64,000 bases of DNA from Gemmatimonadota bacterium (GTDB lineage Bacteria > Gemmatimonadota > Gemmatimonadetes > Longimicrobiales > Gaopeijiaceae), in assembly GCA_022826565.1 (NCBI GenBank), contig JAJDUP010000026.1:1-64000 (forward strand), in the 5' to 3' direction. The translations under genes and the position numbers were made by a program. The number at the start of each line of letters is the position of its first letter. Within the stretch, counting starts at the first letter, position 1. Of the stretch, positions 25,732-46,663 are shown piece after piece. The notes under the pieces were generated by a model. That model was not told where the DNA came from. It made no database searches and was given only the letters and a program-made list of their open reading frames with translations.

Positions 25732-28110
25732 CTACAGGATGCCGTCCACGTACAGATTGAGGCGGAAGCCCTTGTGAGGACCGTTCAGGCCCCGCGACAG
25801 GTCCAGGCGGACGAGTCCGTCGAGAATGCTGCCGCCGATGCCGATGCCGTAGAGCAGGTCGCCTGCGGTGAAGTCGCTCGCTTCGCCGGCCCAGCCGGTG
25901 TCGGTGAAGAGACTCGCGCCCACTCCGTGGAAGATCCGGTTGACCTCGACGCGCCCGCGCAGGAACGACGGGCCCGAGACCACCGAGGCGGGGAAGCCGC
26001 GCAGCGTGGACGTCGCACCGAGGAACCATGACCGCTGGACCGGAGCGGCTCCCCAGGTGTTGCCGCCCGCCGCCTCGAGCCCCAGGCGCCACCCGTCCCA
26101 GCCCTCGCCCCGCACGGGGATGATCGCCCGGGCCGTGGCGCTCGCCTGCACGTAGTCGTTTCGCGCTTCGGCGCCGTCCCCGCCCGAGCCGCCGGCGACG
26201 GGCCGCCAGGTCGCGCCGCGCCCGTGAAACTCCACCCCGAACTGGGCCTTGAGGGGGTCATGTCCCCACCAGGGCGAGATCCGCATCTCCGCGCCCAGTT
26301 CGTCGGCGTCGTCGGCCGTCATGTTCGGCCGGAAGCCCCAGTCCCCGTCGAACACACGGAAGAGGGCGAAGTCGATGTTCCGCTCCACGGCGGCGTGTCG
26401 CTCGGCGTATGCGCGGAAACGGAAGGACTCCCTTCGCCCCTCGGGAGGACGCCAGGTGAAGTCGACGCCGGTTGCCCTGTAGTACTCCCCGTTGTCGCGG
26501 CCGAAGAACAGGGCCTCGAAGGAGTTTCCGAATCCGAGGTGTCCGGCCTGGGGATCCACGGAGTGCAGTTCGTGGTAGGCGCCGAGCGTCAGGCGGCGCA
26601 GCACGTTCGAGCGGTCCAGATCGAGCCGCACCTTGGGGCGGAGGTCGGCAAACCCGAAGAATCCGGACGCCCCGAGGGTGTACCGGTCTCCCAGATCCCA
26701 GTCGAAGTGCCCGCCCAAGGCCGGTCCTTCGACCCGGTTGTAGCGGATCAGATCCTGGCGCGCCCAACCCCAATTGAAGTTCCAGGGAATCACCTGGACC
26801 GGCGGCGCGGGCAGGTCGGCCAGGTCCCCGATATACTCCGCCAGCTCATCGGGGTCGGTGAACCCGGGTGCGCCGTCCCAGACGGGCGGCGGCAGGTGGG
26901 GGCTCTCGGCCACGAGACTGCGGTCCTCCGGGACGATCAGCAGCGACTCGCGGTCCGCGGCCGGGGTCTCGGCTTCGTCCATGAGCTCGTAGGGGATCCG
27001 GTCGTCCTCGGAGAGCAGCGAGGCGATGAAGGCCATGGCCTCGGCGCGCGACGCGAAGTGGACCTCTCTCATCCCGTCCCGCGCGGTTGTCACCGTTCCG
27101 CGCGCGGTCTCGTCGCCCGGGACGACGGGGTCGCCCTCCTCATCCACCTCCACATCCTCCTGCAGGACCACCGACTCGACCTGGTAGGCCATGTCCATCG
27201 AGACGGGGAACCTGAGGACCCCCGCCCTCGCCTCGCCCTCGATGCGCATGCTGCGGGGCAGCCACGCCTTGAAGTCCCAGAGCAGGTAATCCACCGAGAC
27301 GACATTCAGGTTGAAGGTCCACGGCTTGAAGAGGCCGGGAACGAACCGGAAGGTGCCGGCTGCGTCCTCCTCCTGCAGATCGGGGACGTCGCGCATGGCG
27401 TCGAACTCGCGGCTCATGCGGTAGGCGGCCCGGACCAGCGCACCGGTGTCGCGGTCGATCCAGAGGATTCCGCTGATTCGCTGGGGCGCTGCCTCCCGGG
27501 GGAGGACTTCGAGCTGAATCGCCTCCAGCCGGCGTCCGTCGGGGAAAGACAGCGTCATCGTATCACCGCTCTGGAAGCGGTAGATCGTGTCGGCGCCGGA
27601 GGCCAGGGGATGGATGAGCGCGAACTCGTTGTCTTCCGTGTCCGCGGTGAACGCCTCGTCGTCCATTCCCAGGAACAGACGGTCGTTGCCGGGCTCGAAG
27701 GGTCCGTCGAACGGGAGGTCCTCGAGCCAGTCCAGATCGCCTTCGCGCATGGCGATGGCGCGTCCCGGGTACTCGGAACGGGAGCCGAGCACCTGTACCA
27801 CGGTGTCGTAGTCGCGCTCCCAGAATGTGCGGACCGCCGTCTCGCTGTGGTAGAGGACACGGTCCCGCAGCGGCGCGCGGATGGCGGCGGCAATACGCTG
27901 GTCGATCCGGGCGGTGTAGCGCACGACCGACTCGTCCAGCGCGGTCCAGCCGTCGAAGGCCGCCGTGTAGAGCTGCCGGGCGACCGGATCCAGGAAGGCG
28001 TCGGGCGCGAACCGGACCTGCGCGGTGGCGTCGTGCGGCGCGGCCCCGGCGACCGCAGCCACAACGACAATGGCCGCGGCCAGTCGGTGCCTGCAGTTGG
28101 CGGCGCTCAT
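25732..28110 (-). CDS. Outer-membrane beta-barrel protein (surface antigen/BamA-like C-terminus)
   Basis: The protein has 792 residues with a signal peptide (AAAIVVVAAVAGAAPHDATAQ). Residues about 30-400 are a soluble region rich in D/E. Residues about 440-792 alternate in strands and end like D15/TamA-type barrels: a R-G-F-P motif in STLRGFPASVV, then RVEVNRIF, an L-F-x-D-T-G-W motif, G-I-G-I-G-G-S-I and a terminal strand (FRLNLYVDGIL). It probably sits in the outer membrane. Its ATG overlaps the stop of the upstream repeat protein (ATGA, 28110-28107), so the pair is translated together and may form one complex. The function is unknown; the N-terminus is not a recognisable POTRA array. Confidence 0.75.
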   Translation of the reverse strand: MSAANCRHRLAAAIVVVAAVAGAAPHDATAQVRFAPDAFLDPVARQLYTAAFDGWTALDESVVRYTARIDQRIAAAIRAPLRDRVLYHSETAVRTFWERDYDTVVQVLGSRSEYPGRAIAMREGDLDWLEDLPFDGPFEPGNDRLFLGMDDEAFTADTEDNEFALIHPLASGADTIYRFQSGDTMTLSFPDGRRLEAIQLEVLPREAAPQRISGILWIDRDTGALVRAAYRMSREFDAMRDVPDLQEEDAAGTFRFVPGLFKPWTFNLNVVSVDYLLWDFKAWLPRSMRIEGEARAGVLRFPVSMDMAYQVESVVLQEDVEVDEEGDPVVPGDETARGTVTTARDGMREVHFASRAEAMAFIASLLSEDDRIPYELMDEAETPAADRESLLIVPEDRSLVAESPHLPPPVWDGAPGFTDPDELAEYIGDLADLPAPPVQVIPWNFNWGWARQDLIRYNRVEGPALGGHFDWDLGDRYTLGASGFFGFADLRPKVRLDLDRSNVLRRLTLGAYHELHSVDPQAGHLGFGNSFEALFFGRDNGEYYRATGVDFTWRPPEGRRESFRFRAYAERHAAVERNIDFALFRVFDGDWGFRPNMTADDADELGAEMRISPWWGHDPLKAQFGVEFHGRGATWRPVAGGSGGDGAEARNDYVQASATARAIIPVRGEGWDGWRLGLEAAGGNTWGAAPVQRSWFLGATSTLRGFPASVVSGPSFLRGRVEVNRIFHGVGASLFTDTGWAGEASDFTAGDLLYGIGIGGSILDGLVRLDLSRGLNGPHKGFRLNLYVDGIL

Positions 28111-29501
28111 GACCCCGACCCCTCCGGCGCCCGCTGGAAGCGCGCCTCGCGGAAGTCCTCCCACGCGATGTAGTGCCAGTCGGCCCCCTCCTGCCCGACC
28201 CCCTCCCGTGCCGCGGGGCCCGCGTTCGGGAACACGAAGATCCCCCGGTTGTCTCCGTCGACGTCGTTGGAGTCGGAGAGCTCGTAGTCGCGCCCGTCCA
28301 GGAGCGTGACGCGCGCAAACCCGTCGTCGGTGCGGGTGATCCGCCGGATCTTCCCGAACTCCACGTCGAGTTCGACGTTGTCCGAGGTCCCGTCCAGGTA
28401 GTCCCAGCTCCACTCCTCATCGGCGTCCCACCGGATCCAGCCCTCGAACTCTTCGCCGGACCGGCCTGCGACGACACCGTACAACGGGCCGGTCACTCCG
28501 AAGTCGTCGTAGCCGGCCCCGGCAGACGGGGGGTGCAGGCGAAGCGCGCGCAAGTCGTCCCAGTCGACCTCCACGCCACCGAGCCCGGGATCCGCGATCC
28601 GGATCGTGCGGCGGTACCAGCGAATGTCGGACTGCCGGTAGCGCGAACCGAGCGGGCGGTAGAGGTCGACTCCATCTCCGGATGCCAGAGTCACCCATGC
28701 CCCGCCGAAGCGGGATTCCACGGTACTGATCTCGCCGAGGGAGAAGCGCCGCAGATCGCCGTCGTCGTCCCGCCCGGGGAACCGGTCCGACTCGAGGACC
28801 GGAGCGCCGTTCCAGGAGATGAACCCGGTGAAGGTGCGTCCGAAACGATCCTCGACCGACCCGTGGACCCGGGCGGCCTCGGGTGGGACGCCGGACGGAG
28901 CAGCGCCGAACTCGATCCGCGTGATGTCGCGTCCGGAGACCACGACCTGCCCTTCGACGGGGTCGTCGACGGTGATGCGCGCCCTCAGCCCTCCGGTCGT
29001 CGACGATGTGCGCACACCGCCGGGGGACACCGTCATATTGCCTTGCCGCGAGGCGGGCACATCCAGCGACACCTCGCCCGCTGCGCCCCGCCGCACGACC
29101 TGCATTTCGCCGTCGTCGTCCTGCACGAGCGCAGCGAGGTGGCCGAAGCGGATCGCCGTGCGGGTCGTGGTCGCGAAATCCCGGTACCGCTCCTCCCAGG
29201 AGACCCGGTAGTCCCCGACCTCCACGGTGCGCACCGCCGGCTTGCCGTCGTGCACGGCCAGGAGCCAGGTGTTGTAGTTGTCGTCGGATATCTCGCGGCT
29301 GCCGACGAGCACGTCCGCCCAGCTTGCCGCGCTCTGCCCCCTGCCGAATCCGAGGAATCCCTCGTACTCGTCCCCGTCGCCGGTGAAGACGCGTCCCCAG
29401 ATCCGATCTTGTGCCTGGGCGTGGAGGGTTGGCGCGCCGGCCAGAAGGAGTGCGGCGCAAGCGAACCGGAGTGCAAAGGGCGAGTGCAGGACAGCGGGCA
29501 T
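28107..29501 (-). CDS. Exported protein with three internal repeats, hypothetical
   Basis: The protein has 464 residues with a signal peptide (LRFACAALLLAGAPTLHAQ). I do not recognise a named family. Three modules share a pattern of G-x-V, an acidic turn with Gly, then E/T-G-F/W-I-x-W: near residue 35 (GRVFTGDGDEYEGFLGF), near 225 (GSVEDRFGRTFTGFISW) and near 365 (GVVAGRSGEEFEGWIRW). Modules two and three are followed by a F-G/L-G-K/E-I strand, suggesting a repeated small beta-fold. The middle also has a S-S-T-T-G-G linker. It is first in a two-gene operon with the outer-membrane barrel, which it may serve as a periplasmic or surface partner. Start: ATG 29501, opening into the signal peptide. 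Confidence 0.72.
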   Translation of the reverse strand: MPAVLHSPFALRFACAALLLAGAPTLHAQAQDRIWGRVFTGDGDEYEGFLGFGRGQSAASWADVLVGSREISDDNYNTWLLAVHDGKPAVRTVEVGDYRVSWEERYRDFATTTRTAIRFGHLAALVQDDDGEMQVVRRGAAGEVSLDVPASRQGNMTVSPGGVRTSSTTGGLRARITVDDPVEGQVVVSGRDITRIEFGAAPSGVPPEAARVHGSVEDRFGRTFTGFISWNGAPVLESDRFPGRDDDGDLRRFSLGEISTVESRFGGAWVTLASGDGVDLYRPLGSRYRQSDIRWYRRTIRIADPGLGGVEVDWDDLRALRLHPPSAGAGYDDFGVTGPLYGVVAGRSGEEFEGWIRWDADEEWSWDYLDGTSDNVELDVEFGKIRRITRTDDGFARVTLLDGRDYELSDSNDVDGDNRGIFVFPNAGPAAREGVGQEGADWHYIAWEDFREARFQRAPEGSGS

Positions 29502-29641
29502 GGGACGGGACGGGTTCGGGGGAGGCGGGTGAACTCCCATTCTCCTACCCCGCGAGGCGGATTCCGGTTTCGGAGGTCGTCCCGCCGCCGTAGATTGCCC
29601 GCTCATCTCCACCGCCACCTCACATGGACAGGAGTTCAGGA

Positions 29642-30166
29642 ATGCGCATGCGGAATTGGATGACCTCGTGCCTGGCAATCGTTGCAACCGGCGCGTTTTT
29701 CGCCTGCGGTCCCGCGGGGGACGCGGGTGAGCAGGACGATGCGGGAATGTCCGCCGCCGAAGAAGCGGCCGAAGGGCCGTCGAACCCCCGCTTCGGGGTC
29801 TGGCAGCTCGAATCCGATAACCCCCCTCCGTTCATCAACATCATGACCTACGAACCCTACGGGGACGGCGGGATGAAGATCACGGTCGCGTCCACCAACG
29901 CCGACGGCGAGTCCAACGAGTGGAGCTACGTTACGATGTTCGACGGTGAGTTCCACCCGGTCGAAGGCCAGGAGAACGCGGAGACCGCTGTCGAGGTGAT
30001 CGACGAACGCACCAACCATATCCTCAATGCGCGCGGCGGTGAGGTCTACCAGGTCATCGTCAACGTGCTCTCCGAGGACGGCAACACGATCAACAACGAA
30101 TACCGGCGCACGCTCGAGGATGGCACCGAGCGGGTGAGCCACGCGGTCTACCGCCGGATCGAGTAG
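29642..30166 (+). CDS. Small lipoprotein, hypothetical
   Basis: The protein has 174 residues with a lipobox at ATGAFFAC and then an acidic, low-complexity segment (GEQDDAGMSAAEEAAEG), so it is probably a membrane-anchored lipoprotein. The body (about 45-174) resembles small beta-sheet proteins of the lipocalin-like type (WQLESDNPPPF, G-G-M-K-I-T-V, W-S-Y-V-T-M-F-D-G, R-T-L-E-D-G-T). ATG 29642 is preferred over 29624 because CAGGAG sits eight bases before it. No operon partner: it diverges from the repeat protein and converges on apaG. Confidence 0.7.
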   Translation: MRMRNWMTSCLAIVATGAFFACGPAGDAGEQDDAGMSAAEEAAEGPSNPRFGVWQLESDNPPPFINIMTYEPYGDGGMKITVASTNADGESNEWSYVTMFDGEFHPVEGQENAETAVEVIDERTNHILNARGGEVYQVIVNVLSEDGNTINNEYRRTLEDGTERVSHAVYRRIE

Positions 30167-30176
30167 GGCGGGGCGC

Positions 30177-30611
30177 TCAAGCCTGATAGGTTTGGCCCCG
30201 TCCCGGCCGGTCGTCCCGGGGCACGCTCAGTTCGAACCGGGGAATGCGGGCGCGGAACACCGACCCGTCCTCGCGGCGGAAGTGGTAGAAGCCCTCCATG
30301 TGGCCGCTGCGCCCCTGGAGCACGCAGAAGCTCTGGTATTCGTGCACATCGCCGGGCTGCAGGACGGGCGACTCGCCCACAACGCCCTCGCCCTCGACCT
30401 CCTGATCGCCGGCGAGGATGTCGTGGATCTTCCAGTGGCGCCAGAAGAGCTGCGCGGTCCGCCCCCCGGTGTTTTCGATGCGCACGAAATAGGCGAAGAC
30501 ATGGTGCAGGGGCGGCTCCGACTGGGCGCGCGCGTACACCGGCTGGACGCTGATACTCATCCGGCCGTCGAGGATGGGCGGGCGCTGGTACTCGCCGGAA
30601 GGTCTGATCAC
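30177..30611 (-). CDS. apaG: ApaG domain protein
   Basis: The protein has 144 residues of the ApaG family (about 125 usual). Conserved parts: FAYFVRIENTG near residue 40, the W-K-I-H-D block, EGEGVVGESPVLQPG near 80, and GHMEGFYHFRREDG, followed by I-P-R-F. It is a small cytoplasmic beta-sandwich protein; the name comes from an old link to cobalt resistance and the true role is unclear. The first codon here is GTG (30611); ATG 30560 would give a shorter product that begins at the conserved domain. An operator-like dyad at 30641-30670 lies just upstream and is shared with the divergent serine hydrolase. Confidence 0.9.
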   Translation of the reverse strand: MIRPSGEYQRPPILDGRMSISVQPVYARAQSEPPLHHVFAYFVRIENTGGRTAQLFWRHWKIHDILAGDQEVEGEGVVGESPVLQPGDVHEYQSFCVLQGRSGHMEGFYHFRREDGSVFRARIPRFELSVPRDDRPGRGQTYQA

Positions 30612-30640
30612 GGGTGACGCTCGTCAGGCACAGACCGGAA

Positions 30641-30670
30641 ATGTAATGCTAACATTACATCTTGTAATGT
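30641..30670. promoter_or_regulatory. Overlapping palindromic operator dyads (site B)
   Basis: Two nested inverted repeats are present: ATGTAATG-N4-CATTACAT (30641-30660) and ACATTACA-N3-TGTAATGT (30652-30670), both perfect. The second resembles the TACA-N-TGTA dyads bound by BlaI/MecI/CopY repressors and matches site A at 15771-15797. It sits between divergent apaG and the beta-lactamase-like hydrolase, about 80 bases before the predicted hydrolase promoter and about 30 bases before the apaG start. Confidence 0.65.
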
Positions 30671-30751
30671 GTGCATGACATTTGTAGAGTCGTGCGATCC
30701 CTTGCCGTTCCGCGATCGTCCGGCTTTCACCCCACCTCCCCCGACGCAGTG

Positions 30752-30780
30752 TTAGACTTGCTGCCGCGTACCACTAACAT
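30752..30780 (+). promoter_or_regulatory. Candidate promoter of the serine hydrolase gene
   Basis: TTAGAC (30752-30757), a 17-base spacer, then TAACAT (30775-30780). Each box keeps four of six consensus bases. It would place the transcript start about 55 bases before the chosen ATG at 30842. Prediction only. Confidence 0.4.
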
Positions 30781-30841
30781 ACTACCCGATCAACGAATCC
30801 GCGCCCCAATGGCGATACCCCTCCAACGACCGGAGCGTTCC

Positions 30842-32002
30842 ATGCCGCGCAGAATCTTCATGGCCATCCTGGCGGTCCTCGCCACCCAGCCCCTTTCGGC
30901 GCATTCGCAGGAGACCGGGGTTGCCCGCATCGTCGCCCGCTTCGAGCCCGAGATACGGCGCGCCATGCTCGAGGGCGGCATCCCGTCGATAGCCGTCGCG
31001 ATCACCGACCGCGAGGGCGAACTCTGGAGCGGCGCCTACGGCCAGTCCAACCTGTGGGCCCGAACGCCGGCATCCACCAACACGGTGTACCTGATCGGTT
31101 CGACCTTCAAGGCTCAGTCCACCGTCGCACTGCTGCAGCAGATGGAGCAGGGGAAGTTCGCATTGGACGACCCCGTGAGCGACCACCTCGACGACCTCGT
31201 CATCCGCGGCGAGGACATCGAGCGCCCGGTCACCTTCCGCCACCTCCTGACGCATACCTCGGGGATGCCCGTCGACTTCGGACCCCACGCCGTCTGGGGC
31301 ACCACCGCGCCCCTTTCGCTGGACGAGTACCTGGGCGATTCGCTGCGGGTGGAGACGCCGCCGCTGGAAGGCGTCGTGTACTCGAACATGGCCTACTCGC
31401 TGGTCGGACATCTGGTGGAGAAGTTCTCGAGCGTCCCCTACCGGCAGTACGTTCGGGACAACGTCTGGGGCCCGCTGGGGATGACCTCCACCGTCTTCCA
31501 GCCGCCGCCGGCGACGGCCGAGCGCCTGGCGGTGCCGTATGTGCCCGATGCGGAAACGGGGCGCAACGCGCCGACCACCCGGGTGAAGGCCAACGTCTGG
31601 CCCGCCGGGATCGTCTACGGGACGGTGCACGACCAGGCCAACTGGGTGCGCTTCAACCTGGGCGACGGCAGCTGGGGCGACGGGCGGCTACTCGAAGCGG
31701 CCACCCTGGACGAGATGCACACCCTCCAGTACGAACAGTTCGCTGGGGGGCCGATGGGCGGTGGATGGGGGTATGACGACCCCGGATACGGACTCACGTG
31801 GTGGGTGTCGTCGCGCGACGGCGAGCGCTTCTTCGCGCACTCCGGGAGCGTTTCGGGGTATACCGCGTTCGCATCGGGGAACAGAACGCGCGGCTTCGGT
31901 GTCGCCTTCCTGACGAACGGAAACCGCGCCCACCCCCACCTCGTACGGCTGACTCGTCTCGTCCTCGACCTCATGGCCGAGGAGCTCGGCGAATCACGAT
32001 AG
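30842..32002 (+). CDS. Exported serine hydrolase, beta-lactamase/penicillin-binding-like (class C fold)
   Basis: The protein has 386 residues with a signal peptide (IFMAILAVLATQPLSAHSQ). It shows the three serine beta-lactamase/PBP motifs: S-T-F-K (SxxK) near residue 93, Y-S-N (YxN) near 182, and H-S-G near 337 in place of KTG, the pattern of class C-like esterases and D-aminopeptidases. It may act on peptidoglycan peptides, esters or beta-lactams; the sequence alone does not decide. ATG 30842 is preferred (GGAG six to ten bases upstream, opens the signal peptide). The open frame extends back to 30671 but that part contains the promoter. The BlaI-like dyad upstream suggests repressor control. 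The mechanosensitive channel gene follows after 10 bases. Confidence 0.85.
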   Translation: MPRRIFMAILAVLATQPLSAHSQETGVARIVARFEPEIRRAMLEGGIPSIAVAITDREGELWSGAYGQSNLWARTPASTNTVYLIGSTFKAQSTVALLQQMEQGKFALDDPVSDHLDDLVIRGEDIERPVTFRHLLTHTSGMPVDFGPHAVWGTTAPLSLDEYLGDSLRVETPPLEGVVYSNMAYSLVGHLVEKFSSVPYRQYVRDNVWGPLGMTSTVFQPPPATAERLAVPYVPDAETGRNAPTTRVKANVWPAGIVYGTVHDQANWVRFNLGDGSWGDGRLLEAATLDEMHTLQYEQFAGGPMGGGWGYDDPGYGLTWWVSSRDGERFFAHSGSVSGYTAFASGNRTRGFGVAFLTNGNRAHPHLVRLTRLVLDLMAEELGESR

Positions 32003-32012
32003 ACAGCAGACA

Positions 32013-33293
32013 ATGACTCCAACTGAACAACTGACGCTGCCCGCGATTCCACCCGACTGGCCCGACCTGGCGATCGCGCTGGGCGTCCTGGCCGCCGGCG
32101 CCTGGCTTCTCGACTGGATCGCGTCGCGTTTTCTGCATCGCGCCTTCGCGCGTGTGGCCGCGCGCACCCGCTCGAAGTGGGACGACCGCATCGCCGAGCG
32201 GAAGGTCCTGGACCGCCTCGCGCATGTGGTCCCCGCGCTGGTGGTGTACCTGGGTATCGGATCCGCGCTTGGGGTGAGCGCGGACGGGGCGGCGGCCAAT
32301 CCGGGGGCGCCGCTCGCCGTGGCCTGGACGATGGTGCGGCGGGTGGCCGCGGCCTGGGTGGCGTTCGCGGTGGCGCGGGCCTTCGCGGCCTCCCTGGACG
32401 CAGTGAACGACATCTACAAGGAGAGCTACACCGAGGCGAAGTCACGGCCGATCAAGGGCTACCTGCAGGTGATCGGTCTGGTGGCGTGGCTGTCCGCGGG
32501 GGTCGTGATCGTGTCGATCCTCGTGGGACGTTCGCCGGTGGTGTTCCTGTCGGGCCTCGGGGCGCTGGCGGCGGTCCTCATGCTCGTCTTCCGCGACACG
32601 ATCCTGTCGCTGGTCGCCAGCGTCCAGATGGCCTCGAACGACATGATCCGGATCGGCGACTGGGTGAGCGTGCCGCAGGCCAACTCCGACGGCGAGGTCA
32701 TCGACATCGCGCTGCACACGGTGAAGGTGCAGAACTGGGACAAGACGATCTCGACGATCCCCACGAGCAGGTTCATCACCGAATCGTTCAAGAACTGGCG
32801 CGGCATGAGCGAGTCGGGAGGGCGGAGGATCAAGCGCTCGCTGCGGGTCGACATGAACTCGGTGCGTTTCCTCGCGGACGCCGAGATCGACGAACTCTCC
32901 CGGCGCGAGCTGCTGCAGGACTACATGCGGTACAGCGTGGAGGGGATCGCGCGCTACAACGAGGCGAAGGCGGTCGGCAACCCGGGCGTCATCCCCGAGA
33001 TCCGCCGGCTGACGAACCTGGGAACCTTCCGTGTCTACGTGCAGAAGTACCTCGAGGCGCACCCCAGGACCCACAAGGACATGACGCTGCTGGTCCGCCA
33101 GCTCGCGCCGGGTCCCGAAGGCATCCCCATCGAGGTCTACTGCTTCTCGAACGACACCGCGTGGGCGAACTACGAGGGATTCCAGGGGGACATCTTCGAC
33201 CACCTGATCGCGGTGCTGCCGGAGTTCGGGCTTCGCGCCTTCCAGTCGCCGGCGGGGAGCGATTTCGGGCGGGCGTTACGGACCGGCGCCTGA
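32013..33293 (+). CDS. Mechanosensitive ion channel, YbdG/MscM type
   Basis: The protein has 426 residues, close to E. coli YbdG (415). Transmembrane segments are at about 17-38, 70-92, 103-125, 145-170 and a pore-lining helix near 175-205 (VVFLSGLGALAAVLMLVFRDTIL, the MscS signature region). The soluble MscS beta domain follows (IGDWVSVPQANSDGEVIDI near 215, then W-D-K-T-I-S-T-I-P-T-S), with a C-terminal alpha/beta domain. The long insert around residues 265-310 is typical of the YbdG branch. It should release solutes on mild osmotic downshock. It is close downstream of the hydrolase gene and may share its transcript. Confidence 0.9.
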   Translation: MTPTEQLTLPAIPPDWPDLAIALGVLAAGAWLLDWIASRFLHRAFARVAARTRSKWDDRIAERKVLDRLAHVVPALVVYLGIGSALGVSADGAAANPGAPLAVAWTMVRRVAAAWVAFAVARAFAASLDAVNDIYKESYTEAKSRPIKGYLQVIGLVAWLSAGVVIVSILVGRSPVVFLSGLGALAAVLMLVFRDTILSLVASVQMASNDMIRIGDWVSVPQANSDGEVIDIALHTVKVQNWDKTISTIPTSRFITESFKNWRGMSESGGRRIKRSLRVDMNSVRFLADAEIDELSRRELLQDYMRYSVEGIARYNEAKAVGNPGVIPEIRRLTNLGTFRVYVQKYLEAHPRTHKDMTLLVRQLAPGPEGIPIEVYCFSNDTAWANYEGFQGDIFDHLIAVLPEFGLRAFQSPAGSDFGRALRTGA

Positions 33294-33325
33294 CCAGCGG
33301 CGATCCGTATCCGCCGGGGAGCCTT

Positions 33326-33348
33326 CCGGCCTGACCAGGCTCGGCCGG
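33326..33348. terminator. Possible bidirectional terminator hairpin
   Basis: CCGGCC (33326-33331) pairs with GGCCGG (33343-33348) around a loop that can form a smaller GCCTG/CAGGC stem. It sits in the 60-base gap between the convergent channel and lipoprotein genes. There is no T-run on either side, so function as an intrinsic terminator is uncertain. Confidence 0.3.
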
Positions 33349-33353
33349 CCCCG

Positions 33354-33962
33354 CTACCTGGAATACACGACGCGCCCCACCATCTGCGCTCGCCTCCACA
33401 CGATCTCGCGGGTGAGGAGGAGGTGGCCGCTCTCGAGGATCGAGAAGGCGTCGCGGATGGTCCCGCCGCCGGGGATCCGGCGTTCAATCGCGAATCCGTT
33501 GCCACGCCAGATGAGGCGTACCTCGATCGGCCCCTGCGCTGCCGCGGCGTCCACCCAGTCCCCTTCCACGGGAACGTCGACGGGATCCTGGCTGTCGAAG
33601 GCGACCGTCAAGCTTTCGTCGCCGGGCGAGAAAGTCAGAGCCTCCGAAGTGATGCCCAGCATGAGCATCGTCTGCCGCAGCCCGGCTGGTGTACCCGTAA
33701 CGGCGTCGCCGCCAGTTCCCTGCTCGCGCATCATCTCCATCCCGATATCCGACGCCCGCTGATAGATGTGATCGCGCGCGCCGGTCCCGCGGAGGCCGGC
33801 TGCCTGGGCGGTGGCGGCCTCGTCGAGGTTCCAGGCGCCGGTGAAAGTGGCGAGCGCGGCGGTTCGCTCCGGGGACGGGACGCCGGGTCCGGAAGATGCA
33901 CATCCGAGGATGCCCGCAATGGACAGTGCGCAGGTGACGGCGCGCGCGGGGAGGTGGTACAT
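33354..33962 (-). CDS. Lipoprotein, hypothetical
   Basis: The protein has 202 residues with a lipobox at SIAGILGC. I do not recognise the family. The mature part contains [13 protein letters not shown] early, then beta-like segments (SEALTFSPGDESLTVAF, IEVRLIWRGNGFAIERRIPGGG), and ends FSILESGHLLLTREIVW, which resembles small lipocalin-like folds seen in exported Gemmatimonadota proteins. It is last in the minus-strand operon; its ATG (33962) follows the stop of the 36-codon ORF by one base. Confidence 0.65.
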   Translation of the reverse strand: MYHLPARAVTCALSIAGILGCASSGPGVPSPERTAALATFTGAWNLDEAATAQAAGLRGTGARDHIYQRASDIGMEMMREQGTGGDAVTGTPAGLRQTMLMLGITSEALTFSPGDESLTVAFDSQDPVDVPVEGDWVDAAAAQGPIEVRLIWRGNGFAIERRIPGGGTIRDAFSILESGHLLLTREIVWRRAQMVGRVVYSR

Positions 33963-33963
33963 G

Positions 33964-34074
33964 TCAGCAGCCTCTGGTTGGCGTGATGTTGATCGGCTGA
34001 AGCTCGAAGCCGCGCTCGACCGCCTGTTGCAGGATCAAACGCGCCCCGCGCGGCGTCCTCACGTCCAGCCTCAC
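33964..34074 (-). CDS. Candidate 36-aa small protein, translationally coupled
   Basis: The GTG at 34074 overlaps the TGA of the S9 peptidase as GTGA. The TGA at 33966-33964 is followed after one base by the ATG of the next lipoprotein. The ORF thus fills the whole gap between two genes with operon-style junctions on both sides. Third codon positions are strongly G/C (about 31 of 36), like the neighbours. The product begins VRLDVRTPRGARLILQQA and ends NITPTRGC; it is basic with one likely amphipathic helix. I do not recognise it. It could be a genuine small protein or the tail of an older, decayed gene. Confidence 0.5.
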   Translation of the reverse strand: MRLDVRTPRGARLILQQAVERGFELQPINITPTRGC

Positions 34075-36170
34075 TTCAGAAACCGCTCGAAGAAGTCCTC
34101 GGCGGCCTCGAATACGGCCATCCAGCTGCGGTGCAGCAGGAAGCCGTGGACCTCGTCGGGAAGGACGAGATGCTCCACGTGCACGCCCTTTCGCCGGAGC
34201 ACCTCCGCCAGTTCGACGGATTCCGCGAAGGGGACGTTGCGGTCGTCGTCGCCGTGGATCAGCAGCACCGGCGATTCCCACCGGTCCACGAAGGCCATCG
34301 GAGAGGACTCGAAGGCGCGCCGGGCGAGGTCGGGATGCGCCACCGGATCGTAGGAGGGCACGAAGTTGCGGATGATCTTGTTCCAGTCATGGGCGCCGTG
34401 GACGTCGACCCCGGCCTTGAAGAGATGCGAGGCCTGCGCGAGGCCGTGGGCGGTCAGGTAGCCGCCGTAGGAGCCGCCCCAGAGCCCGAGCCGGTTGCCG
34501 TCCACGTCGTCCCGCGCGGCCAGCCAGGCCCCGGCACCGAGAACATCGCCTACCTCGGAGGCGCCGTCGGCCCCGTAGTGCAGCGCTTCGCGGAATTCCA
34601 TGCCGTAGCCGATGCCGCTCCGGTAGTTCACCGAGAGGACCGCGTAGCCGCGCGCCGCCAGGTGCTGGTTGAAGGCGTAGGTGTGGTGGTAGTAGCCGCG
34701 GTGATGGAACCCGAGGAGCATCTGGCGGCGGGATCCCCCGTGCAGGAAAAGGAGGCCGGGCCAGCCGCCGGGCGGGGGAGGGCCCTGGGGGAGGAAAAGC
34801 TGCCCGTGAATGGGAAGGCCGTCGGCGGAGGGGAAGATCACCTGCTCGGGTTCGGACAGGCCGGAGGGGATGGCTTCCGACGCCGATTCCACCAGCCAGC
34901 GCCGTTCGTTCCCTGCGAGCACCTCGGCGTGTGCGGGGACCGTGCCGGACGACGCCAGAAACGCGATCGACCCGTCGGAGGCGGGCGCGGGCTGCCACTC
35001 GATTCCGGTGCCGGGCGTCAGCTGGCGCGCGCCGCTGCCGTCCAGCGGTCCCCACCAGAGGTGCTGACGGTCCGTGTCCCCCTGGTTGGAAGAGAAGACG
35101 AGTGCCTCGCCGCCGGGCGCGAGCGCGACGTACTGCACCTCGAACTCTCCGGTCGCGATGGGGCGGGGCTCGTCCCCGCCGGCAGCGCCGACCGAGTAGA
35201 GATTGGTGAAGCCGTTGCCTTCCCACGGAAACGCGATGCGGTCACCCGCGCCCCAGAAGATGTTTCCGGTACCGGATATGGTGCGGAATACGCTGCCGGG
35301 CCCGTCCGGGGCCGCGAAGACGGTCCGGACCGTGCCGTCGTCGATGCGCACCACCCGGATGCTCCAGGGCAACGCCTCCCGCACGGCGAAGAACGGGAGG
35401 CGGCCCTCTTCGCTGGGGATGCGCAGGAAGGCGACCTCACGCCCGTCCGGCGACCAGGCCGGGCTGCCGTCGACATCGAGGGAAGGGTCGAGATAGCGAA
35501 GGTGGCGGCCGGCCAGATCCAGCACGCCGATGAAGGCGTGATCCCCGCGCTGGCTGGTCCAGGCCAGGTGGGTGCCGTCGGGAGACAGCCGGAGTTCACC
35601 CGGGCTGCCGCGGCCCCTGACCAGAGCCTCGGCTTCCGCGTCCGCGTCCGAGGTTGACCTGCGCCGGATCACGCCGCCCTGGATGTAGATCACGGCGCTG
35701 CCGTCGGCGGTCAGGAGGGGCGAGTGTCCGGGTCCCAGCCTGGCCGGTGCCCCGCCATTGGTGCCGACCACCCAGAGTTCCCGGTCGACACCGGCAGGAT
35801 CGCTTTCCGGGTTGGGGATCTCTCCGGCCCGGTTGGGAGCGCCGCCTCGAACGAACGCGATGGTGGCGCCGTCGGCCGAAACCGCGAGGCCGGCCACCTC
35901 CTGCCCGTCGTCCTCTTCGAACTGCGTGAGCGGCCGTCCGCGCCACCCGGGGCCCGCGGCGGCCCAGACGTTGCGCGCTCCTCGCTCGTTGCGCACCCAG
36001 ACCACCACCGGGGCGTCCGCGGCGGCCGTCATTTCGGTGGGGAAGGGCCAGCCGACGAGGGCGTCGAGGTCGGTCTGGCGGGTCTGGGTGGAGGCGGTCG
36101 AGAACGCCGCCGCGCAGAGCAGGAGGGATGCGAGCGCGGTCGCGGCTCTTCGGGATTGTGTGTTGTTCAT
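34071..36170 (-). CDS. S9 family peptidase, exported
   Basis: The protein has 699 residues with a signal peptide (ATALASLLLCAAAFSTAST). Residues about 30-430 form a DPP-IV-like propeller (several LSPDG, WSPDG and SADG turns). Residues about 450-699 form the hydrolase. The nucleophile is Ser567 in GGSYGG, with acid in HGDDDRNVP and His in DEVHGFLLH. The hydrolase segment LFLHGGSRRQML carries the oxyanion loop. It should act on oligopeptides outside the cytoplasm. It is third in a minus-strand operon: aminotransferase, CopC-CopD protein, this peptidase, the 36-codon ORF, lipoprotein. It is only five bases from the upstream stop. It is distinct from the S9 peptidase at 8332, which has a Cys before the catalytic serine. 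Confidence 0.93.
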   Translation of the reverse strand: MNNTQSRRAATALASLLLCAAAFSTASTQTRQTDLDALVGWPFPTEMTAAADAPVVVWVRNERGARNVWAAAGPGWRGRPLTQFEEDDGQEVAGLAVSADGATIAFVRGGAPNRAGEIPNPESDPAGVDRELWVVGTNGGAPARLGPGHSPLLTADGSAVIYIQGGVIRRRSTSDADAEAEALVRGRGSPGELRLSPDGTHLAWTSQRGDHAFIGVLDLAGRHLRYLDPSLDVDGSPAWSPDGREVAFLRIPSEEGRLPFFAVREALPWSIRVVRIDDGTVRTVFAAPDGPGSVFRTISGTGNIFWGAGDRIAFPWEGNGFTNLYSVGAAGGDEPRPIATGEFEVQYVALAPGGEALVFSSNQGDTDRQHLWWGPLDGSGARQLTPGTGIEWQPAPASDGSIAFLASSGTVPAHAEVLAGNERRWLVESASEAIPSGLSEPEQVIFPSADGLPIHGQLFLPQGPPPPGGWPGLLFLHGGSRRQMLLGFHHRGYYHHTYAFNQHLAARGYAVLSVNYRSGIGYGMEFREALHYGADGASEVGDVLGAGAWLAARDDVDGNRLGLWGGSYGGYLTAHGLAQASHLFKAGVDVHGAHDWNKIIRNFVPSYDPVAHPDLARRAFESSPMAFVDRWESPVLLIHGDDDRNVPFAESVELAEVLRRKGVHVEHLVLPDEVHGFLLHRSWMAVFEAAEDFFERFLK

Positions 36171-36175
36171 CGGAG

Positions 36176-37594
36176 TCAGTTCAGGGGCTGCACCACCAGG
36201 AAGGATGTCGCGATCACGGCCGCCGCTGCCAGCAGCAACTCGAGGGTTGCGGAAGGCCTGAGGCGGTCCGGTCGTGGGTCGCTCGCCAGCGCCGGGCGCA
36301 CCACGCGCCAGTTGTAGAAGCCGAGCGCCATCACGCCCAGGACCACGGCGTCCTTGACGAGCAGCGACCGTCCCCAGGCCGTGGTCCATATGTCGGAGGG
36401 CGCACCGATGTGAAGCCACGCCTTGACCCCGCCCGAGACGACCAGGAGGCCGACGGCGGCGAGGGCGAGCCGGGAGAAGGCGCCGACCAGTGCGGGCAGT
36501 GGAGACGGCGCACCGTTCGCCGGCTTCCCTGGATCGCGCAGCGCCGGGAGCCCCGCACAAACCACGCAGCACAGGCCCCCCACCCACGCACTGGCGGCCA
36601 CGACGTGCAGATACGTTGCGAGCGATGACACGGCGCGGGGGCTGTCCGCCCAGGCGTGGCCGGAAACGATGGGTACGATGGGCAGCGCCAGGGCCCCGAG
36701 CGCCGCGAGCATCCACCCGCCGGCAACCCGGCGCCCCCCGGGGCGCGCCAACCCGATGCCGAACAGGACGACTGCGCCGGCGCCCCCCTGCAGCCACCAG
36801 CCGGTGCTCCATGCCGTCCCCGGGGTCGCGGCCCCGAGGTTGCCCAGCGCGTCGTCCGGGAGGAAGGACTGCGTCTGGAACCAGAGACGCAGCGGCAGCG
36901 TGAGCAGCAGCAGGCCGGCAGCGAGCGCAGCGATCCGCCAGACCCGGCCGGTTACCGCAACGGTCGCGGCCTCCGGCAGGTGCGCAGCGACGGCCCCCAG
37001 GACCAGCGACTTGAAGGCGATGGCGCCGAGGATGCCCACGATCGCCGCGTAGAACGCGAAGCGGGTTGCCAGAGCGAGGATGTCGACGGACGGTTCCGCT
37101 TCCGCGACCTGTGCGTCCTCGCGGGCCGCCGGGTCCCGCTCCGTGCCGCCCGCAACCGGGGGGTCCCCCGTGCCCGCCACGTCGCCCTCCTCATCCTCCT
37201 CCAGCATCGGCAGATCCACCCGAAACCCGAACTCGCCCGAGATCGGGTGCCCGTCCGGTCCGGCGGTCCGCCACGAGACGACGTAGGCGCCCGAAGGCAA
37301 CGGCGCCGCCAGTGGGAGGACCAGGACATCGTGACGGTCGGCGAAGAGGTAGGCGAGTTCGCCAGCAGGGGCCGCCGCGCCGTCAGCCACCGTGGAAGCG
37401 ACCGTGACGGAGCTGAGCGCCAGTTGCACCTCGGTCGTGAACGCGAGGGTAACCGCGTCCGGGGACTCGGTCACGACGGCGTCCGCCTCGGGATCGGAGT
37501 CCTCCAGTTCGGTGTGAAGCCGGATCGCTCCGGCCACCGATGCGAGCGCCAGGAGCACGGCCGTGCCTCCTGCCATGCGCCGCACCAAAAGCAT
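36176..37594 (-). CDS. CopC-CopD fusion, copper resistance/import membrane protein
   Basis: The protein has 472 residues. After a signal-like helix, residues about 25-130 are a CopC beta-sandwich: an early His (RLHTELEDSDPEAD) and the hallmark SWRTAGPDGHPISGEFGFRV. An acidic linker follows (about 135-175). Then come eight or so membrane helices of the CopD type (about 180-470), including the TYLHVVAASAWVGGL block. CopC binds periplasmic copper and CopD moves it across the membrane; fused forms are known. Its copper site cannot be fully judged by eye: the early and DGH histidines are present. ATG 37594 is used, with ATG 37576 as an alternative. It is second in the minus-strand operon. Confidence 0.88.
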   Translation of the reverse strand: MLLVRRMAGGTAVLLALASVAGAIRLHTELEDSDPEADAVVTESPDAVTLAFTTEVQLALSSVTVASTVADGAAAPAGELAYLFADRHDVLVLPLAAPLPSGAYVVSWRTAGPDGHPISGEFGFRVDLPMLEEDEEGDVAGTGDPPVAGGTERDPAAREDAQVAEAEPSVDILALATRFAFYAAIVGILGAIAFKSLVLGAVAAHLPEAATVAVTGRVWRIAALAAGLLLLTLPLRLWFQTQSFLPDDALGNLGAATPGTAWSTGWWLQGGAGAVVLFGIGLARPGGRRVAGGWMLAALGALALPIVPIVSGHAWADSPRAVSSLATYLHVVAASAWVGGLCCVVCAGLPALRDPGKPANGAPSPLPALVGAFSRLALAAVGLLVVSGGVKAWLHIGAPSDIWTTAWGRSLLVKDAVVLGVMALGFYNWRVVRPALASDPRPDRLRPSATLELLLAAAAVIATSFLVVQPLN

Positions 37595-37665
37595 CCGGTC
37601 CGGTCCGGTTCCGCGTCTGATCGCGGTGCGATTACGGTGCCGCTGGCGAATCGCCCGCGACGCCG

Positions 37666-39000
37666 TCACGCGGTCGGCAGTCCGTGCTTGATCGCCCACT
37701 CCATCGCCTCGCTGAATCGGTCGATCTCCTCGAGCGTCGTGTACACGCTGGGGGAGATCCTGAGCCCGGTGCACTCCTCGTGGCCGATCGAAACGTTGAT
37801 GATCCGGTGCTCGTTCCAGAGCCAGGTGCTGAGGGCGGCGGTGTCCAGGCCCTCGACGTGCACGTTGCCGATCCCGCAGGCGAAGCCGGGTTTCCGGCTC
37901 GTGTTGAGGCTTACGCGATCGTTCTCGAGGAGGCGGTTGGCCCAGTGGTCCCTGAGGTAGATCAGCCGCTCGGCCTTGCGCTCGGCGCCGATCCCCTGGT
38001 GGAAGGTCAGCGCCTCGCCGATCGCCAGGTAGTTGGCCGCGGGGTGCGTGCCGATCTCTTCGTACTTGCGGATGTTGTCGGTCATTCCGTCGGGCGCCGC
38101 CATCAGAGGCCAGATGTTGGGGACCTCTTCCTTGCGGACGTAGAGCAGGCCGGTGCCGTGCGGAGCGAAGAGCCACTTGTGGAGGCTGGTCGCGTAGTTG
38201 TCGCACTCCAGCTCGGAGAGCTTGAAGGGGAAGTGCGCGAGGGCGTGGGCGCCGTCGACGATGACCGGGATGTCGTAGTTGCGCGCCATGGCCACGATCT
38301 CCTTCACCGGCAGGATCTGGCCGGTCAGGTTGATCATGTGGCACATGAGGATGAGGCGGGTCCTGTCCGTGATGCCCTCCTCGAAGCGGCGCACCACCTC
38401 GGCGTCGTCCTCGGCGGGCACCGGGACCCTGATCTGCCGCATCACGATGCCCTCGCGGCGTTCCCGCTGCCGGAAGGTGGTGAGCATGCGCCCGTAGTCC
38501 TGGGTCGTCGTGAGGACTTCGTCGCCCTTCTGGAGGTCGTAGCCGAACTGGCATATCTGCAGGCCTTCGGAAGCGTTGCGCGTGAAGGCGACCTCTTCGG
38601 TGTCGACGCCCCATTCCCGCGCCATGCGGGCCCTCACGCCCTCGCGCTGCGGCCCGAGGATCTGCCACATGGTGTAGGTGGGCGCCTTGTTGGAGAAGTC
38701 CAGGTGCCGCTTCATCGCCTCCTGCACGAAGGTTGGCGAGGGGCTGACGCCGCCGTTGTTCAGGTTGACCAGAGTGCGGTCGACGGTGAAGGCGCGGGCC
38801 ACTTCGGACCAGTAGTTCTCGTCCCTGGCGATGTCTGCCGGGGCTCCCCGGTGACGGCTGAGGTCGTCCGCGATGGCCGTGGCGTTCGAGTTGAAAGCGG
38901 GCAGCTGGGAGGCTCCCAGCATGGCCGCCGCCGATCCGAGGAAATCGCGTCGATTCGGCGCCGTGCGGCGCGCATTGCCCTTCTTGACCTTGCGGTTCAT
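37666..39000 (-). CDS. Aminotransferase class V-fold PLP enzyme with Tat signal (isopenicillin N epimerase-like)
   Basis: The protein has 444 residues. The N-terminus carries a twin-arginine motif (NRRDFLGSAAAMLGA), implying folded export by Tat. The body is a fold-type I class V enzyme: NLNNGGVSPSP near residue 80, FTRNASEGLQ near 140, IPVIVDGAHALAHFPF (Asp that holds the pyridine nitrogen) near 240, and the Schiff-base lysine in TSLHKWLFAPHGTG near 265. Closest known groups are isopenicillin N epimerases and cysteine desulfurase-like proteins. A GGGAGGACAG site precedes ATG 39000. It is the first gene of the five-gene minus-strand operon. The substrate is unknown. Confidence 0.88.
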   Translation of the reverse strand: MNRKVKKGNARRTAPNRRDFLGSAAAMLGASQLPAFNSNATAIADDLSRHRGAPADIARDENYWSEVARAFTVDRTLVNLNNGGVSPSPTFVQEAMKRHLDFSNKAPTYTMWQILGPQREGVRARMAREWGVDTEEVAFTRNASEGLQICQFGYDLQKGDEVLTTTQDYGRMLTTFRQRERREGIVMRQIRVPVPAEDDAEVVRRFEEGITDRTRLILMCHMINLTGQILPVKEIVAMARNYDIPVIVDGAHALAHFPFKLSELECDNYATSLHKWLFAPHGTGLLYVRKEEVPNIWPLMAAPDGMTDNIRKYEEIGTHPAANYLAIGEALTFHQGIGAERKAERLIYLRDHWANRLLENDRVSLNTSRKPGFACGIGNVHVEGLDTAALSTWLWNEHRIINVSIGHEECTGLRISPSVYTTLEEIDRFSEAMEWAIKHGLPTA

Positions 39001-39154
39001 CTGTCCTCCCGGGTGAGCCGTCCCGAAGCGGCACCGCGGTTGGCCGCCGGGACGCATTGTGGTCGCACCGGTGCTGCGCGCCGATGCCGGAGCCGCATCA
39101 AAATAAGCCGTGAAGCGGACGGGGAGCAAACCGTGTTTCCCGGTGCGGATACGT

Positions 39155-39160
39155 TATCTT
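39155..39160 (+). promoter_or_regulatory. Candidate -10 (TANNNT) for a leaderless rnz transcript
   Basis: TATCTT lies six bases before ATG 39167, the spacing seen in leaderless genes where the transcript starts at the initiation codon. No Shine-Dalgarno sequence is present before this ATG. The rest of the 166-base divergent gap (39001-39166) shows no other clear site. Confidence 0.35.
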
Positions 39161-39166
39161 GACCCG

Positions 39167-40078
39167 ATGATTCGAGTCCGCTTCCTGGGTACTGCCGCTT
39201 CCCGCCCGACCGTCGGCCGCAACGTCTCGGGCATCGCCGTGCAGCGCGAGGGCGAGTCCTTCCTCCTCGACTGCGGCGAGGGAACCCAGCGGCAGATCAT
39301 GCGCTTCGGCACCGGGTTTTCCTTCTGCCACATCTTCATCACCCATGGACACGCGGATCACTTTCTGGGGCTGCCCGGGCTGCTCCGCACAATGGGGCTC
39401 CAGGGCAGGGAAGACCCGATGACGATCTACGGTCCGGCCGGCACGCGGGAGCTGCTCCGGGCCGCGGTTCGCATGGGGATCGAGCGGCTGGCCTTTCCCG
39501 TCGAGGTGAGGAGTCTGCGCGATGGCGACCGCGTGGCGTTCGACGGGTGGGCGGTGCACGCCTACGACGTGGATCACGGGGTCGCCGCGGTCGGCTACGC
39601 CCTGGTGGAAGAGATGCGGCTCGGCCGCTTCGACGTGGAGATGGCGCGGAGCCTCGGCGTACCCGAGGGACCCCTCTTCGGCCAGCTCCATCGGGGCCGC
39701 CCGGTCGAGGTGGACGGGCGCGTGATCACGCCGGAAGAGGTGGTCGGCCCGCCCCGCCCCGGCCGCAAGGTGGTGTACACGGGGGATACCCGCCCGACCC
39801 GTGCGACCGGCGCCATGGCGATGGGGGCGGACCTGCTCATCCACGAAGCCACCTTCGGCTCGGAAGAGAAGCGGCGGGCGTGGGAGACGCGGCATTCGAC
39901 GGCTGCGGAGGCTGCCCGTGTGGCGGCGCAGGCGAAGGTGAAGCGGCTGGTGCTGACCCATGTGTCGGCGCGCTACGCCGATGCACCCCGGGTGCTCGAG
40001 AACGAGGCGCGCGCCATCTTCCCGGAATCGACGGTCGCCCGCGACGGGCTAGAGATCGAGATCGGCTACCGTGACTGA
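39167..40078 (+). CDS. rnz: Ribonuclease Z
   Basis: The protein has 303 residues and is a metallo-beta-lactamase-fold endonuclease that trims the 3' end of tRNA precursors. The start, FLGTAASRPTVGRNVSG, and LDCGEGTQRQ are typical. The zinc motif THGHADHFLGLPG is near residue 60, and further ligands occur in VVYTGDTRP and LIHEATF. Late His residues lie in ETRHSTAAEAA and LTHVSARYAD. Length matches the usual 300-310. The start chosen is the ATG at the first conserved residues; the 19 codons before it are not family-like. The next gene starts inside its last codons (8-base overlap). Confidence 0.95.
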   Translation: MIRVRFLGTAASRPTVGRNVSGIAVQREGESFLLDCGEGTQRQIMRFGTGFSFCHIFITHGHADHFLGLPGLLRTMGLQGREDPMTIYGPAGTRELLRAAVRMGIERLAFPVEVRSLRDGDRVAFDGWAVHAYDVDHGVAAVGYALVEEMRLGRFDVEMARSLGVPEGPLFGQLHRGRPVEVDGRVITPEEVVGPPRPGRKVVYTGDTRPTRATGAMAMGADLLIHEATFGSEEKRRAWETRHSTAAEAARVAAQAKVKRLVLTHVSARYADAPRVLENEARAIFPESTVARDGLEIEIGYRD

Positions 40079-40985
40079 GGCGGCGGTGCGCAGCGTTACG
40101 GTGGTCGGACTGGGCGTCATGGGTGGATCGGTGGCCCGGGCCGTGCTGGAGCGGCTGCCGCGGGTTCCGGTGTTCGGGATCGACCCCGACCCGGAATGTG
40201 CCGTGATGGCCGCGGGCGACGGGGTCGAGGTGGTTGCGCGGCTGAGCGATGCTCGGGTTGGCGGTGGCGTCGTGGTGTTCGCCGCGCCGCTGGACGCGAC
40301 CGCCGGACTGGTGGGCGAGACGGCCGCGATGTGGCGCCGGGCGGGGCTCGCCATGGATGTGGCCAGCCTGAAGGGTCCGGTGCTGGCGGCGGCCGCGAAG
40401 GCGGAGTCGTCACCGGCCGGCGATGGCGCTCCGGGGCCGGGTGTCTTCGTCGGTGCCCACCCCATGTGCGGCTCGCAGCGCTCCGGCTACGCCGCGGCCC
40501 GGGCGGACCTCTTCGACGGGGCCGATGTCTGGATCTGTCCCCTGGATCGGGCAGGGCGGCCGGCATCCGCCGCGGGCGACCTCGACCGCATCGATTCCGC
40601 TGGTGCGGTGGAGCGGGCGGCCGCCTTCTGGACGGCACTGGGGGGCAGGCCCCGCATCATCTCCGCAGCAGAGCACGACCGCATGATGGCGTGGGCGAGT
40701 CACCTCCCTCAGCTGCTCGCAAGTGCGCTCGCCGAGGTCCTGCAAAGACGGGGAATCACCTCTGGTCAGCTCGGCCCCGGGGGACGCGACATGACGCGGC
40801 TCGCCGGGTCCAGCCCGGCCGTTTGGCGCCCGCTGCTGGAGGCCGCGGCCGAAGACGACGCGGCGGCCCTCCGCGCAGTCGAGCGGCAGATCGCCGCGAT
40901 CCGGCGGACCATCGAGGCCGGCGACTGGGCCGCCCTCGAAGAACTCATGCACGGGGGGAGGCGATGGACCGGGGAGAGGGACTGA
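40071..40985 (+). CDS. tyrA: Prephenate dehydrogenase
   Basis: The protein has 304 residues and makes 4-hydroxyphenylpyruvate for tyrosine. The NAD site is VVGLGVMGGSVARAV at the N-terminus; the substrate-site motif GAHPMCGSQRSGY is near residue 125. The helical C-terminal dimerisation half (about 180-300) includes SHLPQLLASALAEVL. No ACT regulatory or chorismate mutase domain is present. The start is GTG 40071, overlapping rnz by eight bases; its end overlaps aroA-cmk by 22, so the aromatic genes are tightly coupled. Confidence 0.93.
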   Translation: MTEAAVRSVTVVGLGVMGGSVARAVLERLPRVPVFGIDPDPECAVMAAGDGVEVVARLSDARVGGGVVVFAAPLDATAGLVGETAAMWRRAGLAMDVASLKGPVLAAAAKAESSPAGDGAPGPGVFVGAHPMCGSQRSGYAAARADLFDGADVWICPLDRAGRPASAAGDLDRIDSAGAVERAAAFWTALGGRPRIISAAEHDRMMAWASHLPQLLASALAEVLQRRGITSGQLGPGGRDMTRLAGSSPAVWRPLLEAAAEDDAAALRAVERQIAAIRRTIEAGDWAALEELMHGGRRWTGERD

Positions 40986-43015: not shown

Positions 43016-43093
43016 GGACTGTGCCCCGTACACTCGCGGTAACTCGCAGCGGCGCTGCCGCGTAGTAGACGAAAGCCCGGGGCGAACAGGCAA

Positions 43094-43132
43094 CACGGTC
43101 TCCGGCCATGAACGGGATGGCCCGGGACCGTG
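43094..43132 (+). promoter_or_regulatory. Strong leader hairpin upstream of rpsA
   Basis: CACGGTCTCCGGCCAT (43094-43109) pairs with ATGGCCCGGGACCGTG (43117-43132) around GAACGGG. Of 16 positions 14 are Watson-Crick, one is a G-U pair and one a C-C mismatch. A further long-range pair GCCCCG/CGGGGC is possible earlier in the leader. It is not followed by a T-run. Its location in a leader of about 210 bases before a gene with no clear Shine-Dalgarno suggests a role in control of S1 synthesis. Confidence 0.6.
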
Positions 43133-43226
43133 CGAATCCATTCAACTCCAGCCTGGCCCGTGATTTTGCTTGCGTGGCTGGACCAGCACCGGAGCGCCGG
43201 CCTCCGTGTCGGCGAGACATTGACCA

Positions 43227-45047: not shown

Positions 45048-45072
45048 GAAGGGACCCGGAGCGCCGAGGCGC

Positions 45073-46656: not shown

Positions 46657-46663
46657 CCACAGC

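Follow-up and report, generated by a model that had tools for sequence, protein, structure and literature searches.

Deletion remnants within bacterial operons typically consist of a truncated gene whose flanking genes have remained intact. For the locus described here, the closest counterpart is a full-length gene for a CarboxypepD_reg-like protein in metagenome-assembled genomes (MAGs) of Gemmatimonadota (for instance JAJDTB010000007.1, VXQO01000113.1 and OX638356.1). In the window, that is, the whole 64,000-nt stretch of Gemmatimonadota DNA that we analyzed, the same place between the same flanking genes is occupied by a 36-codon open reading frame (ORF) on the minus strand (33964–34074). 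Full-length gene and ORF end in the same frame, and their start overlaps are alike in four of nine relatives. Relative to the full-length gene, a net 223 codons are missing from the window copy, among them those for the CarboxypepD_reg-like domain and for a possibly plug-like part. Truncation and intact, collinear flanks are features that the ORF has in common with deletion remnants in general; unlike the usual remnant, however, it has retained its frame, start overlap and stop spacing and thereby looks like a designed small gene. As laid out below, we consider the ORF very probably to be what an internal deletion has left of a larger operon gene.

The original prediction had described an ORF with a GTGA overlap at one end, a single base to the next ATG at the other and a strong GC bias at third codon positions, all of which we could confirm for an ORF on the minus strand with 86% GC at these positions. 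The upstream neighbor encodes a peptidase of the S9 (prolyl oligopeptidase) family (34071–36170, minus strand; PF00326, E = 1.1e-39), whose TGA stop codon (34073–34071) is overlapped by the GTG start codon of the ORF (34074–34072, minus strand) to form the sequence GTGA. At the other end, the TGA stop codon of the ORF (33966–33964) is followed by one base and then by the ATG, at 33962, of a gene for a predicted lipoprotein (33354–33962, minus strand). The latter protein has an invariant cysteine, C21, in what we take to be a lipobox-like context, and returned no match in Pfam. Directly upstream of the peptidase, a single frame at 36176–37630 contains both a CopC and a CopD domain; CopC/CopD-like genes adjoin the full-length gene in three relatives (G022, G011 and G008), too. 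GC contents at the three codon positions of the ORF (0.64/0.50/0.86) resemble those of both the peptidase (0.72/0.52/0.88) and the lipoprotein gene (0.68/0.55/0.83).

Such an architecture is only mildly unusual by chance. In 20,000 mononucleotide shuffles of the gap, with the GTGA held fixed and the rest randomized, the frame of the ORF was open across the whole gap in 43% of cases, and in 4.5% the first stop codon fell between 10 nt before and 4 nt after the next gene's start. Stop-to-stop frames comprising 36 or more codons plus stop number 805 in the 64 kb of the window. Taken alone, the ORF is thus weak to modest evidence, and it is the comparison with relatives that is decisive.

To this end, the lipoprotein was searched for in 59 whole genomes, ranging from the same genus to the same order and including the window's own, and the C-terminus of the peptidase in the 23 genomes of the genus. 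A peptidase orthologue (≥85% identity) was present in 11 of the 23, namely in the window genome and ten others. In nine of the ten others, a complete gene of 250–268 codons comes next after the peptidase, in the same orientation, and the lipoprotein gene follows it. What had been proposed to be a small, unrecognized gene is, most likely, a remnant instead: rather than a conserved short ORF, all nine relatives possessing both flanks carry a gene for 250–268 residues, intact and at the same position, and homology identifies the ORF as the tail of this larger gene, an outcome that the original prediction itself had named as a refutation. The tenth genome (G009) has the peptidase with a gene for MscS as its neighbor, and neither the full-length gene nor the lipoprotein gene. 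Between peptidase and MscS, it contains a different long frame that is open for more than 400 codons (L103, 1850–3142), an arrangement that speaks neither for nor against a deletion.

The full-length protein was then searched for in all 23 genomes of the genus, with orthologues defined by at least 50% identity. Orthologues were found in 12 genomes, comprising the above nine as well as G022, G011 and G008, in which the gene is located between the CopC/CopD-like gene and that for MscS, in the absence of peptidase and lipoprotein genes. Since these three genomes carry the gene without its two neighbors, its presence is probably ancestral. Among the matches listed, the other 11 genomes, including that of the window, gave paralogue-like ones only; the best in the window genome, on another contig, is a paralogue of 30% identity (E = 3.8e-14). 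Altogether, the window's own genome returned 20 matches to the full-length protein, three of them consecutive on one contig (e.g. G000:C40:184880-187219), and by similarity these CarboxypepD_reg-like matches appear to constitute a large paralogous family.

Closer inspection of the full-length gene revealed junctions of the same kind as those of the ORF. In G006, G002 and G015, the gene can start at a GTG, and in G013 at a TTG, that overlaps the stop codon of the peptidase, giving a GTGA/TTGA overlap in four of the nine relatives, the nearest one (G006) among them; the other five have 4–5 bases between the peptidase stop and the start of the gene. In seven of the nine (the exceptions being G017 and G001), its stop codon is located two bases ahead of an ATG or GTG that is in frame with the lipoprotein gene. 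Because the full-length gene has junctions of this kind, the coupled-looking ends of the ORF require no new function. They are genuine operon-gene junctions, as had been suggested, and the full-length gene is what explains them.

With respect to the encoded protein, all nine orthologues matched both CarboxypepD_reg-like profiles, PF13715 and PF13620, at E ≤ 0.1 (best 4.1e-13 and 6.4e-13, respectively). The domain corresponds to residues 45–107 of the G006 protein and falls inside the part missing from the window; it is absent from the window ORF, whose 36 amino acids returned no match in a Pfam search. The C-terminal half may be weakly plug-like, with a weak match to the TonB plug (PF07715) in two of the nine orthologues (best E = 0.00089), and the N-terminus, judged by eye, resembles a signal peptide. 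None of these parts is retained in the stub. The ancestral protein of 250–268 residues was probably exported; a putative role would be that of an accessory to TonB-dependent outer-membrane transport. The predicted structure of a full-length orthologue had a mean pLDDT of 48, too low for use, and an NCBIfam search with the full-length protein returned nothing above the curated cut-off. Aligning the full-length sequences against solved structures yielded cellulosomal scaffoldins as the best matches (E = 1.8e-6), which cover the CarboxypepD_reg-like stretch only and add nothing on the function of the protein.

The deletion itself emerged from a blastn comparison of the window with 19.9 kb of G006. 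Two collinear blocks (28035–34034 at 91.3% and 34071–47190 at 93.3% identity) meet exactly at the ORF, which marks the one break in ~19 kb (28035–47190). At this break, 36 bp of the window stand against 705 bp of G006, which amounts to a net loss of 669 bp (223 codons) that preserves the frame. Elsewhere in the window assembly, the missing part of the gene was not found, and given that the best match to the full protein in this genome is the 30% paralogue, the lost part has not moved within the assembly. With the gene found in 12 other genomes, three of them differing in arrangement, its loss in the lineage of the window is the simplest reading. The locus thus combines what identifies a gene remnant: an intact orthologue in place, collinear flanks and a discrete loss. 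Beside the main collinear match, secondary matches of ~69% to G006 at 43962–44146 and 44478–44668 suggest a diverged internal repeat.

What has been retained is the 3′ end of the ancestral gene, i.e. its stop codon and the 23 codons before it, except for the very first base (33964–34034, minus strand). The alignment of these 71 bp to the gene end of G006 scored 82 as compared to a maximum of 28 among shuffles (0/500), and the scores against G002, G013 and G015 were likewise reached by none of 500 shuffles. At the protein level, the alignment of the tail, ILQQAVERGFELQPINITPTRGC, with FLQRAAERGFQLQPINITTSRGC of G006 is free of gaps, and 17 of 23 residues are identical. When all 36 amino acids were searched against the 23 genomes of the genus, the best matches after the ORF itself were the gene ends of G006 (E = 2.1e-6) and of G002, G013 and G015 (9.3e-5 to 2.5e-4), always to residues 14–36. 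The rest of the matches listed had E-values of 0.1 or worse, and the tails of the more distant orthologues were not among them. The earlier view of the ORF as coding hence stands insofar as at least its last 23 codons have a protein-coding origin in that frame, and most likely fails insofar as it implied a small unrecognized gene. Two residues invariant in all nine intact orthologues are altered in the window: F237, now isoleucine, whose first base lies at the junction, and A242, now valine.

The 36 bp on the other side of the junction (34035–34070, minus strand) had no detectable match. Their alignment to four intact genes was no better than that of shuffles; against the G006 gene, the score of the first 12–13 codons was reached by 171 of 500 shuffles, and none of the matches to orthologues in the 36-residue search included them. 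Nor was a second copy of the 36 bp found in the same genome, where only short, low-score matches were returned. This stretch may be either what divergence has left of the lost gene's N-terminal codons or filler sequence at the junction of the deletion. Since the intact full-length genes, too, show little conservation of their N-terminal part, the failure of the first 12–13 codons to align is evidence neither for nor against such descent. A single weak protein match to the ORF within its own genome (47% over 30 amino acids, E = 0.19, in another long frame) was taken as chance.

Taken together, these comparisons point to the following scenario. The ancestral gene would have encoded 250–268 residues, with a signal-peptide-like N-terminus, a CarboxypepD_reg-like domain and a C-terminal part faintly resembling a TonB plug, and was probably translated by termination-reinitiation from the stop codon of the S9 peptidase. 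In the lineage of the window, a net 669 bp would have been lost in frame, leaving the overlapping GTG start, about 12 codons without an assigned origin, and the last 23 codons plus stop. Judged by its position, this GTG would be the ancestral start codon. The remaining product, devoid of the domain and of most of the protein, would have forfeited the protein's function, and the stub peptide presumably does nothing. The surviving tail would then owe its retention solely to serving the lipoprotein gene as leader and ribosome-binding site, or else would not yet have decayed.

The last codons of the ORF contain an AGAGG motif (33971–33975, minus strand), located eight bases before the ATG of the lipoprotein gene and resembling a ribosome-binding site. 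Its duplex energy, based on what we assume to be the anti-Shine-Dalgarno sequence, is −5.8 kcal/mol, and the six relatives tested gave −5.8 to −12.1 kcal/mol at the corresponding site. Pairing upstream of the stub's GTG is weak in the window and in G006 (−2.9 kcal/mol each) as well as in G002, G013 and G015 (−3.8 kcal/mol). Initiation of the lipoprotein may therefore depend on the end of the remnant, reinitiation may still lead to translation of the stub, and a service of AGAGG to the lipoprotein gene could explain why the tail survived. Relative to G006, dN/dS was 0.24 for the tail (13 differences in 23 codons), 0.23 for the lipoprotein and 0.10 for the C-terminus of the peptidase. One synonymous and three nonsynonymous changes in the tail fell on the window branch, the same numbers on the G006 branch, and five were unresolved; these differences are too few for reading selection or decay, and most may predate the deletion. 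The lipoprotein (33354–33962; dS 0.63, 77% amino acid identity) is much more diverged from G006 than the adjoining peptidase C-terminus (34071–34760; dS 0.24, 96%), and the tail, with a dS of 0.56 from 23 codons only, goes with the lipoprotein. The deletion may lie close to a recombination boundary.

These same features might be read as a functional stub, that is, as a small protein or a coupling leader, the deletion having been kept because translation of the 36 codons would hand ribosomes on from the stop codon of the peptidase to the ATG of the lipoprotein gene. Such a role would fit the frame, intact between the overlapping start and a stop codon that a single base separates from the next ATG, the ribosome-binding-site-like AGAGG within it and a tail whose dN/dS is like that of the lipoprotein. 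However, the junctions are of the kind found in the relatives' full-length gene and call for no new function, and one in three internal deletions would preserve the frame by chance. Furthermore, the confident matches of the 36-residue search across the 23 genomes of the genus were all ends of long genes and included no second short stub. We therefore regard a functional stub as unlikely, and hold equal doubts that the gene was reduced in frame to a 36-codon translational relay between peptidase stop and lipoprotein start.

Alternatively, the true genome might carry the full gene, and the contig might have lost about 670 bp through an assembly error. The same-genus records that have titles are MAGs, the window's own assembly comprises 61 contigs at 93% completeness, and the deletion is seen in this one assembly, with one genome per species compared. 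Yet repeats at the junction are usually required for a collapse, and here we find 36 unmatched bases that lack a second copy in the genome; moreover, the 370-kb contig shows no other break in collinearity with G006 across the 19 kb compared, rendering this explanation quite improbable. That the frame is open by chance, as part of an intergenic gap rich in GC, which its openness in 43% of shuffled gaps might suggest, is hardly credible and refuted for the tail, given that the last 23 codons are orthologous, in the same frame, to the end of a real gene.

Our preferred reading of the ORF as a deletion remnant bears on how small genes are recognized. Perfect operon junctions and codon bias are no proof of a small gene, because a gene whose middle has been deleted in frame inherits both. 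In GC-rich genomes, a longer gene should thus be looked for in the same slot of relatives before a small protein is called. As judged from these genome comparisons, the ORF between the S9 peptidase and lipoprotein genes most likely does not represent a new small protein but the ordinary remnant of a gene.
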